NCBI GenBank assembly: GCA_021732145.1 | Contig: JAKFVN010000007.1 | Coordinates: forward strand, 21,001 to 85,000 | Length of the DNA: 64,000 nucleotides | Source of the DNA: Alphaproteobacteria bacterium | Lineage (GTDB): Bacteria > Pseudomonadota > Alphaproteobacteria > UBA9219 > RGZA01 | Reading direction: 5' to 3' | Part shown: positions 3,935 through 59,583 of the stretch, piece after piece | Position numbering within the stretch: position 1 is the stretch's first letter | Layout: every line of letters starts with the position of its first letter | Position numbers and translations under genes: made by a program | The notes under the pieces: generated by a model | What the model saw: the letters and a program-made list of their open reading frames with translations, nothing else | What the model was told of the DNA's origin: nothing | Database searches by the model: none

Positions 3935-4804
3935 ATGGAAAATGACAGTAAACAGCAAGTCCTAGTCTTGGGAGGCGGTAGCCTTGTCGGAAATTACCTT
4001 TTGCCGTTACTGGCGGAGCAAGGATATCGCGGTTATGTCGTTAGCCGCAAAAAGACCGATACCGGCCTGAATTTCGCATGGCTGCCCACCAATGAGGTGC
4101 AGGATGCCTCATGGCATTTGCATGACCGTGCCGTGATTATCAGCCTGTGGCCCATCTGGCTCCTGGGCCCGGTCATGCCGCAATTCTTGGGCGCATCGCA
4201 ATTGATTACCCTTAGTTCCACCAGTTTATTCGGCAAATCGAAAAGTTTAGATAAGCAGGAAAAGGAATTGGTGCGCAAAATTGGCGCTGCCGAAGAAGTC
4301 GTGCGGGTGAACAGCGAAACCTTCCGTATCCCCTATACCATTTTGCGCCCTACCCTGATTTATGATTGCGTGAATGACCAGAACATCACCTTCATCGCGC
4401 GCATGATTAAGCGCTTTGGGTTCTTCATGGTCTCTGGTGAAGCGATGGGGCTGCGCCAACCCATTCATGCGCAGGATGTGGCGCAGGCCGTCATTAACAG
4501 TATCGGCAATAAGGATGCATTCAACAAATCCATTAATGTCACGGGCGGGGAAACGGTGACGTATTTCACGATGATACGCCGCGTGGCTGAAAGCCTGGGA
4601 CGTCCCATTCGCATCTTTTCATTCCCCACATACCTCTTGAAAAACCTGCTGCGCGTGGTGCGCGCGATGGGGCTGACGAATTTAAGCCCAAGTCTGTTTG
4701 AGCGCATGAACCAGGATTTGGCGTATGATGGCACGGACGCGCTGTCGATTTTGAAATTGAACGCGCGTGATTTTAAGCCGGAATTTCCAAAAGATTTGGA
4801 TTAA
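3935..4804 (+). CDS. NAD(P)-dependent epimerase/dehydratase family (SDR) protein
   Basis: 289 aa, N-terminal 'VLVLGGGSLVGNYLLPLLAEQGY' Rossmann-type start and epimerase-like body. Confidence 0.75.
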   Translation: MENDSKQQVLVLGGGSLVGNYLLPLLAEQGYRGYVVSRKKTDTGLNFAWLPTNEVQDASWHLHDRAVIISLWPIWLLGPVMPQFLGASQLITLSSTSLFGKSKSLDKQEKELVRKIGAAEEVVRVNSETFRIPYTILRPTLIYDCVNDQNITFIARMIKRFGFFMVSGEAMGLRQPIHAQDVAQAVINSIGNKDAFNKSINVTGGETVTYFTMIRRVAESLGRPIRIFSFPTYLLKNLLRVVRAMGLTNLSPSLFERMNQDLAYDGTDALSILKLNARDFKPEFPKDLD

Positions 4805-6739: not shown

Positions 6740-8658
6740 TGGCATTGCCCCGTTTTAACCGCGTCATATTTTCGTTTGTGCATGATGTATTCATGGCCGC
6801 GCTTACCTTTGCGGTGGCTATGTATCTGCGTCTTGGCGGTGGGCTGTTTGAAATTCCGGCGGAGCCTTGGTTGCTTCAAATGCTGCTTTTCGTTTCAAGC
6901 AGCATTCTTGCATTTGCGATTACCGGCGTTTACCGCGGCGTATGGCGTTATACATCGGTTCGCGATTTGGGAAATATTTTACGCGCGGTGACGATTGCGG
7001 TTGCCATTTTCCTTCCCGTTTCATTTCTGCTCACGCGCCTTGATGGCATGCCGCGTTCGGTAGCTGGCATTGTGTGGTTTGTGCTGGTGGCGTTCATGAG
7101 CGGATCGCGCCTGTTTGTGCGCCTGCTGCGCGAAGGCCGCCTTGACCGTTTCTGGAACGCCAATCACCAGGATCGCACCAATGTGCTGGTGGTGGGCGCA
7201 AGCGATGAAGCCGTGCTGTTTATCCAAAGTTCCATCGCCGACCGCGCATCGCCGTATCACGTTGTTGGGGTGCTCGATGAAAAAGGCACCCGCACGGGCC
7301 GTGAAATCCATTCGGTTTCCATTCTTGGCAACATGGCCGACCTGAAGCAGGTTGTGAATGATTTGAAGGCCAGGAACCTTGCCCCTGCCCGCTTGATTAT
7401 CAGCAAGGTTGCCGGACGCAGTGCGGGGTTTGAGCAATTCCTTTCCGAGGCGCAGGCGCTTGGCCTCACGCTGTCGCGCCTGCCATCCATCACGGAACTG
7501 CATGAAAGCGCCGGGTCGCTTTCCAACGTGCGCCCGATTGCGCTGGAAGATTTGCTGGGCAGAGCAGAAACCGTCCTGGATAGAAACGCGATGACCGCAT
7601 TTGTGCAGCATAAACGCGCCCTGGTAACCGGTTCCGGCGGTACGATTGGCAGCGAATTAACCCGCCAAATCGCGGCATTAAAACCAAGCGAACTGGTATT
7701 GGTGGATAGCAGCGAATTCAATTTATACGCGATTGAGCTGGAACTGCGCGAAGCATTCCCGATGCTGAACATTCAAGCACAGATTGCCGATGTGCGTGAT
7801 GCGCAGCGCATCAACCAGATTTTTGCAACCTTCAAACCCAATATCGTGTTCCATGCGGCAGCGTTGAAGCATGTACCAATGGCCGAAGCCAATGTGCGCG
7901 AAACGCTCCTCACCAATGTATTGGGCACAAAGAATGTTGCTGATGCCGCTGCGCAATATAACAGCGATGTGATGGTGCTGATTTCAACCGACAAGGCCGT
8001 GCGCCCGGCGAATGTGATGGGCGCAAGCAAACGCATTGCCGAACATTATTGTCAGGCATTCGACCATGATAATTCCGGCAAGACGCGCTTTCTGACCGTG
8101 CGCTTTGGCAATGTGCTGGGTTCCACGGGTTCGGTTGTTCCGCGCTTCCAGCAGCAATTGGCAAAGGGCGGCCCGCTTACCGTTACCCACCCCGATATTA
8201 CGCGCTATTTCATGACCGTACGCGAAGCAGTTGAACTGGTTTTACAAGCATCTGCGCACGCAACTACAGGCATTACCGAACGCGGTAAAATCATGGTGCT
8301 GGATATGGGTAACCCCATGAAAATTGCTGATTTAGCAAAGCAGATGATACGCCTTGCGGGTTTGAAGCCGGATGAGGATATCAAAATCGTCTATACCGGC
8401 TTGCGTCCGGGCGAAAAACTATATGAAGAATTATTTAGCGATAGTGAAAAACTGACACCGTCTGGCGCGGATGGTGTGCATTTGGCTGCCGCTGCGCCCA
8501 AACCATTTAATGATGTAAACAGCTTCATCACATCGCTTGGCGCGAAAGCGCAGGATGCAAATACCGATGAACAGCTATTGCGCAGCGAAATTGTAAATCT
8601 AGTGCCGGAATTTACTGGTGCCCAAACTGAGCAGCAAAAGAAAATCGTCAATGGATAA
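6736..8658 (+). CDS. Polysaccharide biosynthesis nucleoside-diphosphate-sugar epimerase/dehydratase (CapD/FlaA1-like)
   Basis: 640 aa. N-terminal TM region, CoA-binding-like domain, then 'ALVTGSGGTIGSELTRQIAAL', 'FHAAALKHVPMAEANVRE', 'STDKAVRPANVMGASKRIAE'. Confidence 0.92.
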   Translation: MMALPRFNRVIFSFVHDVFMAALTFAVAMYLRLGGGLFEIPAEPWLLQMLLFVSSSILAFAITGVYRGVWRYTSVRDLGNILRAVTIAVAIFLPVSFLLTRLDGMPRSVAGIVWFVLVAFMSGSRLFVRLLREGRLDRFWNANHQDRTNVLVVGASDEAVLFIQSSIADRASPYHVVGVLDEKGTRTGREIHSVSILGNMADLKQVVNDLKARNLAPARLIISKVAGRSAGFEQFLSEAQALGLTLSRLPSITELHESAGSLSNVRPIALEDLLGRAETVLDRNAMTAFVQHKRALVTGSGGTIGSELTRQIAALKPSELVLVDSSEFNLYAIELELREAFPMLNIQAQIADVRDAQRINQIFATFKPNIVFHAAALKHVPMAEANVRETLLTNVLGTKNVADAAAQYNSDVMVLISTDKAVRPANVMGASKRIAEHYCQAFDHDNSGKTRFLTVRFGNVLGSTGSVVPRFQQQLAKGGPLTVTHPDITRYFMTVREAVELVLQASAHATTGITERGKIMVLDMGNPMKIADLAKQMIRLAGLKPDEDIKIVYTGLRPGEKLYEELFSDSEKLTPSGADGVHLAAAAPKPFNDVNSFITSLGAKAQDANTDEQLLRSEIVNLVPEFTGAQTEQQKKIVNG

Positions 8659-18284: not shown

Positions 18285-18381
18285 AAGGATATATTAGAGA
18301 TGCGTAATGCTTTAACACCTGTATTTAAAACTATTTTGGCGCATTTATCAAAATGATGTTTGGATTTGCGTATTTTTTTGC

Positions 18382-18455
18382 TAGTGTGACATCTCGCAAT
18401 TGCTTAATACGCTGCCGTAAAGACACAGTGCAATTGCGAGATATAAGTCACACTA
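18382..18455. repeat. Palindromic element E1 (74 bp, TA-flanked)
   Basis: TAGTGTGAC-ATCTCGCAATTGC-(26 nt)-GCAATTGCGAGAT-ATAA-GTCACACTA. Arms match except a 4-nt bulge on the right arm. Confidence 0.85.
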
Positions 18456-18470
18456 ACTTTACAATTCTTC

Positions 18471-18540
18471 TAGTGTCCTAACCTCCAAATTGCCTTAACA
18501 TTCTGGCACTACCTGTGAAGGCAATTTGGAGGGGACACTA
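18471..18540. repeat. Palindromic element E2 (70 bp, TA-flanked), homologous in layout to E1
   Basis: TAGTGTCC-TAA-CCTCCAAATTGCCTT-(21 nt)-AAGGCAATTTGGAGG-GGACACTA. Arms match except a 3-nt bulge on the left. Pairing extends to TTC/GAA outside (18468-18543). Confidence 0.85.
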
Positions 18541-18580
18541 GAAATCGCCCATAAAGTCACACATCTCCAAGGCTCGTTCC

Positions 18581-59503: not shown

Positions 59504-59583
59504 TTATAGCCAATCACATCAATAATAATTAATGCGATTGGCTATAACGGATATGACCATATCCGCGCCCACTTATGTGGGCG
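59504..59583. other. Cluster of three consecutive inverted repeats/hairpins upstream of pfk
   Basis: TTATAGCCAATC(20 nt)GATTGGCTATAA at 59504-59547; CGGATATG-AC-CATATCCG at 59548-59565; CGCCCAC-TTAT-GTGGGCG at 59566-59583. Confidence 0.75.

Follow-up and report, generated by a model that had tools for sequence, protein, structure and literature searches.

A two-hairpin, probably IS630-type mobile element at a CTAG site between nadE and a DUF4389 gene in an alphaproteobacterium

Two adjacent hairpins, E1 and E2, located between the divergent starts of nadE and a DUF4389 gene, are the two halves of one mobile element of about 160 bases that entered a CTAG site in this lineage. The hairpins lie in a 64,000-nucleotide stretch of an alphaproteobacterial genome (GenBank assembly GCA_021732145.1, a 2.09-Mb draft in 54 contigs), referred to here as the window. 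The 159-bp element codes for no gene and is very probably a non-autonomous transposable element of the IS630/Tc1-mariner type (MITE). While such an element is ordinary in principle, and well supported at this site, the family to which it belongs is unusually widespread and structured.

A single insertion at the nadE locus

The original prediction described two tandem palindromic elements, and its account of their parts agreed with our reexamination of the sequence: E1 (18382-18455, 74 bp) and E2 (18471-18540, 70 bp) are 15 bp apart, have TA at all four ends and outer helices starting with TAGTGT, carry a bulge (ATAA in the right arm of E1 and TAA in the left arm of E2), contain AATTGC within their inner helices, and enclose loops of 26 and 21 nt, respectively. 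Folding energies were -33.3 kcal/mol for E1 and -37.7 kcal/mol for E2 (z about -8), values matched by none of 200 shuffled sequences, and the expected number of TAGTGT..ACACTA pairs at the spacing seen in E1 and E2 was 0.00 in shuffled windows. The geometry is mirror-like, with both bulges pointing to the 15-bp linker (Table 1). The window contains another strong inverted repeat (59504-59547; 20-nt arms, 90% complementary, 4-nt gap), the sequence of which is unrelated to E1 and E2.

Table 1. Parts of the two-hairpin element and its target junctions (window positions)
Feature	Position	Strand	Basis
Whole mobile element, two inward-facing hairpins and linker	18382..18540	.	159 bp including both TA copies; absent as one block from G002 and G001; end-to-end match to model R2
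Left target junction C/TA, first half of CTAG plus TA duplication	18381..18383	.	Empty site TTTGCTAGAAATCG in two relatives
Right target junction TA/G	18539..18541	.	Empty-site comparison
E1 outer arm, left; terminal repeat start TAGTGTGAC	18382..18390	+	Sequence, folding
E1 inner arm, left, ATCTCGCAATTGC	18391..18403	+	Sequence, folding
E1 loop	18404..18429	.	Sequence, folding
E1 inner arm, right	18430..18442	-	Sequence, folding
E1 bulge ATAA on inward-facing arm	18443..18446	.	Folding; homologous 4-nt bulge in aligned units
E1 outer arm, right	18447..18455	-	Sequence, folding
AT-rich linker, 15 bp	18456..18470	.	All aligned units have a linker of about 15 nt
E2 outer arm, left	18471..18478	+	Sequence, folding
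E2 bulge TAA on inward-facing arm	18479..18481	.	Folding
E2 inner arm, left, CCTCCAAATTGCCTT	18482..18496	+	Sequence, folding
E2 loop	18497..18517	.	Sequence, folding
E2 inner arm, right	18518..18532	-	Sequence, folding
E2 outer arm, right; terminal repeat read inwards TAGTGTCCCCTCC	18533..18540	-	Sequence, folding

The decisive comparison came from two genomes of the same genus, G002 (NadE 95% identical) and G001 (83%), in which the gap between nadE and the DUF4389 gene aligns on both sides of the element. Both carry the exact empty site TTTTTTTGCTAGAAATCG, where the window reads TTTTTTTGC, then TAGTGT...ACACTA, then GAAATCG. Since E1, E2, and the linker are missing together from this site, they represent a single insertion into CTAG with duplication of TA, and because two relatives lack the element, parsimony favors one gain in the window lineage over two losses. 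The empty orthologous sites that the original prediction had proposed to look for thus do exist, and they support the suspected mobility and TA target duplication; the MITE reading stood as to the kind of element (terminal inverted repeats TAGTGT..ACACTA and duplication of TA at CTAG) and had to be amended as to the unit, which is one 159-bp two-hairpin element instead of two elements. The site of a second full unit in the window genome (C19) is also empty in G002 and G001, and one G002 unit is absent from the matching place in the window genome; in both of these cases the junctions have drifted and are not base exact.

Two independent single-hairpin MITEs that happened to insert 15 bp apart would account for the presence of separate TA ends and TAGTGT repeats in E1 and E2, and another copy in the window genome (C22) is indeed a single hairpin. 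Still, we consider such a coincidence very improbable: neither the hairpins nor the linker are present at the empty site, intact copies elsewhere consist of two hairpins in a fixed arrangement with a linker that aligns, this unit recurs across the class, the bulges always face inwards, and C22 is followed by linker-like sequence, as expected for half a unit. Equally little credence is given to a role in the regulation of nadE or the DUF4389 gene, as an RNA or an operator, for which hairpins of such stability, situated between divergent genes and showing compensatory changes within the family, might seem suited. The element is absent from this position in same-genus relatives, leaving no sign of the conservation linked to nadE that had been put forward as an alternative, and other copies adjoin unrelated genes. 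In addition, Rfam searches of the region and of canonical copies gave nothing above the cutoff, and promoter and terminator scans revealed no pattern, the latter in line with the earlier view that simple termination is not the obvious role. The inserted MITE may nonetheless have a secondary effect on expression.

A family of two-hairpin units in Alphaproteobacteria

Further copies, as anticipated, were present in the window genome, in its genus, and in other Alphaproteobacteria. A search of the window genome for AGTGT..ACACT identified C19 and the half unit C22 (G000:C22:20962-21033; L010:2963-3034), bringing its content to only two units and a half; the gene lying upstream of C22 takes its TAG stop codon from the TAGTGT of this half unit. 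When the class was searched by pattern and by model, 20 of 385 sampled alphaproteobacterial genomes proved to contain the two-hairpin unit, which measures about 163 bp; it was likewise found in named records of Bradyrhizobium, Caulobacter, Phenylobacterium, Magnetospira, a Parvularculaceae bacterium, Roseospira, and Hoeflea. The plan of the unit is recurrent (two hairpins with inward-facing bulges and an AT-rich linker) and is retained in short-loop variants (L255 to L257) of 128 to 131 bp. As is typical of MITEs, the units are short (159 to 166 bp), gene-less, and, in some genomes, numerous, with 59 model matches in OFTM380, 124 in RYN_472, and at least 150 in LHD-71 (some copies being counted on both strands). 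Insertion at CTAG is evident from CTA..TAG flanks in 32 of 46 nonredundant model-found copies, and tandem copies, including those in sequences L080 and L151, overlap by exactly 2 bp, as would be expected when one copy inserts into the CTAG that ends another.

A covariance-model search recovered the whole window unit. Model R2, built from 31 units without any sequence from the window genus, matched positions 18382 to 18540 over their full length (82.2 bits; E about 2e-17, under a rough calibration), while the same alignment stripped of its structure gave only a partial match of 13 bits. Membership of the window copy is therefore based on structure, termini, target, and empty site rather than on primary sequence. 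As for its orientation relative to the two hairpins of aligned units (A and B), linker similarity judged by eye favors E2 as B, whereas model R2 favors E1 as B.

Several other observations were made during these searches. In Chelatococcus asaccharovorans (L068, minus strand, about 7145-7330), one unit abuts another with a single CTAG common to both; the sequence of its B hairpin, TAGTGGAGC..GCTCCACTA, is altogether different yet remains paired. A genome of the same order as the window genome (G007; e.g., G007:C2:84788-89097) is rich in AGTGTGGAGT / ACTCCACACT repeats, which are of another, simple type and gave 49 pattern matches in 1.5 Mb. Among viral contigs, two matches to the canonical arm were obtained, and element copies were located on two short IMG/VR contigs of putative viral status, L305 (2119-2280 and 4347-4475) and L306 (1766-1863). 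The E1 inner helix had no match in viral contigs, none of the phage records searched matched, and no plasmid matched the window element in sequence.

Paired arms and IS630-type ends

The original prediction read the divergence of sequences with conserved pairing as compensatory change, a view upheld by the covariation of both hairpins across units. In 34 aligned units, 98.1% of pair cells were standard, and both sides had changed at 31 of 48 pairs, with the observed values reached by none of 500 shuffles; slid structures gave 26 to 44% pairing. These covariation counts are inflated by the relatedness of the sequences, and many units owed their inclusion to a pattern matched in a single arm of the A hairpin. 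Since the B hairpin was not selected in this way, its helices, with double changes at 6 of 9 and 12 of 15 pairs, represent the cleaner evidence. The pairing may be under selection, either as an aid to transposition or because an insert with structure is tolerated better, or it may be maintained by template switching. Quasi-palindrome correction by template switching as the sole cause of the matched arms is disfavored, because it should have erased the bulge too, and the bulge is kept in aligned units. Whatever the cause, the family offers a natural set of covarying transposon ends that can be used to examine why hairpin structure persists.

GANTC is the site of CcrM methylation. The A-end stem of most units (e.g., in L095 and L131) holds this motif as GAATC or GATTC, with the N being the most frequently covarying position, and 36 of 46 nonredundant copies have it in an outer arm. 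IS630 ends carry GANTC as well (GAGTC and GAATC); the terminal 30 nt of E1 and E2 do not.

The connection to IS630 started from a weak BLAST match, which led to an intact IS630-family element on plasmid p1 of Cupriavidus KK10. This element has 22-nt repeats, CTAGTGTCCCGAGTCAGAAATT / AATTTCTGACTCATGACACTAG, and encodes a 361-amino-acid protein with DDE_3 and helix-turn-helix domains, and IS630 relatives in S. meliloti end in TAGTCATCCGAATCCGAAATTCG and TAGTCACCCGAATCTAAAGTTCG. Aligned with the A-end consensus of the family, TAGTGTCCCGAATCCGAAGTTCG, the Cupriavidus end and the two S. meliloti ends match at 20, 19, and 19 of 23 positions, compared to an average of 7 for random TA-starting 23-mers, none of which in 100,000 reached 18. 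Two genomes carrying the element provided further cases: in G099 a near-complete transposase gene adjoins TAGTGTCCTGAACCGGAAGTTCG (20/23), and in G399 a transposase remnant adjoins TAGTGTCCCGATTCCGAAGTTCG (22/23). Similarly, the A end of a Roseibium unit, TAGTCACCCGAATCTGAAGTTCG, is identical to an S. meliloti IS630 end at 22 of 23 bases. The proposed IS630 link is thereby supported for the family, whose outer arms match IS630 terminal repeats and whose insertion into TA, with CTAG preferred, follows the IS630 target. The window copy itself shares only TAGTGT and the central AATT.

A transposase with matching ends, for which the original prediction had proposed to look, was found in part: IS630 genes or remnants with such ends occur in the other carrier genomes named above, while the draft assembly of the window genome yielded no DDE_3 transposase, IS630 loci in its nearer relatives had no TAGTGT ends, and the transposase that moved the window copy was not found. 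Searches for ends on IS630 elements of Streptomyces and Shinella returned none or dissimilar ones. The ends of E1 and E2, both with AATTGC, have diverged in parallel, which, judged from these sequences, suggests that the window copy was moved by a transposase of different specificity; a cognate IS630 would carry the end pair TAGTGTGAC/TAGTGTCCC.

PMC2170065 and works that it cites describe the IS630 family as moving by cut and paste into TA, with IS630 itself preferring CTAG. By analogy, mobilization of the gene-less element in trans by an IS630-type transposase would be the most economical account. The enzyme would bind the outer arms, that is, the terminal repeats starting with TAGTGT, excise the element, and insert it at CTAG with duplication of TA, presumably by cut and paste, as in the studied relatives. 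Each end would then consist of a terminal repeat, a loop, and an inverted second repeat copy interrupted by a 3- to 4-nt bulge, an arrangement that makes it a hairpin; the inner arm looks like a second terminal repeat disabled by the bulge. One point counting against the MITE reading is that ordinary MITEs do not require two internally paired ends.

The inverted orientation of the two palindromes also recalls REP/BIME elements moved by a RAYT (HUH) transposase, and alphaproteobacteria do have REPs of the CGTC type (PMC3733652). This origin is extremely improbable, given that the hairpins measure 70 to 76 nt rather than 20 to 40 bp, that no GTAG or CGTC tag is found at their foot, that TA is duplicated in CTAG, and that the ends match those of DDE-type insertion sequences.

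Comparison with known repeats

The literature searched contained no earlier description of this two-hairpin element, which is probably a new family within a known type, the IS630-type MITEs. The IS630-family elements of Cupriavidus and S. meliloti plasmids have similar repeats, such as TAGTGTCCCGAGTCAGAAATTCG and TAGTCATCCGAATCCGAAATTCG, and C/TA..TA/G flanks; unlike our units, they are about 1.17 kb long, encode a transposase of about 361 amino acids, and show no adjacent inverted second repeat copy at their reported ends.

Closest in shape are two groups of two-armed repeats. The CcrM-associated intergenic repeats (CIR) of Caulobacter, which occur in Brucella as well, consist of two long inverted repeats and a linker with TA ends (Chen and Shapiro 2003, as given in PMC2229807), and their mechanism of mobility was described as unresolved (PMC2229807). 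Like CIR, the present family is alphaproteobacterial and intergenic, has two inverted repeats, a linker, and TA termini, and contains GANTC. CIR elements, however, are about 110 bp in length with GANTC at the terminal loop, whereas our units are about 163 bp (128 to 131 bp in short-loop variants) with GANTC, if present, in one stem. The family is set apart on the basis of the CIR description rather than CIR sequences, and it may yet be identical with a CIR class.

The second group comprises repeats of about 100 bp in Rhizobium and Bradyrhizobium, which we take to be those named RIME. These follow the same plan of two hairpins and a linker between CTA..TAG flanks, and the first of their hairpins likewise has a 4-nt bulge in its inner arm; they differ in length and have unrelated sequence with TAAAGC ends. 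In Bradyrhizobium pachyrhizi (L081, minus strand, about 3996-4098), a RIME/CIR-like two-hairpin repeat, TAAAGCATGATCC..GCGCTTTA, with GATTC in a loop, sits in the internal CTAG of a family unit, with TA duplicated. This insertion, together with C/TA..TA/G flanks at most of five plasmid copies inspected, suggests that the RIME-like repeat is also an IS630-type MITE.

We speculate, with some reserve as we deem it rather less than probable, that this family, CIR, and the RIME-like repeats constitute one superfamily of two-hairpin IS630-type elements, each end of which needs the terminal repeat a second time, inverted and with a bulge. If so, the hairpin would itself take part in transposition, as an auxiliary site for the transposase or as a folded-strand signal, its arms would coevolve with transposase specificity, and the GANTC found in the stem at one end might link movement to CcrM methylation and hence to the cell cycle. 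In any case, these results tie two-armed repeats, whose mechanism of mobility a 2007/2008 review had called unresolved, to IS630 transposases and explain a repeat found widely among Alphaproteobacteria, with high copy numbers in some genomes.

Closest in mechanism is RUP of Streptococcus pneumoniae, the classic example of an IS630-derived MITE, small and gene-less, which stems from IS630-Spn1 and has IS630-like terminal repeats and a TA target (PMC2229807, PMC3049150). The small size, the lack of genes, the type of terminal repeat, and the target are shared by the family described here; RUP differs in being a 107-bp Firmicute element with a single pair of terminal repeats rather than two separate hairpins.
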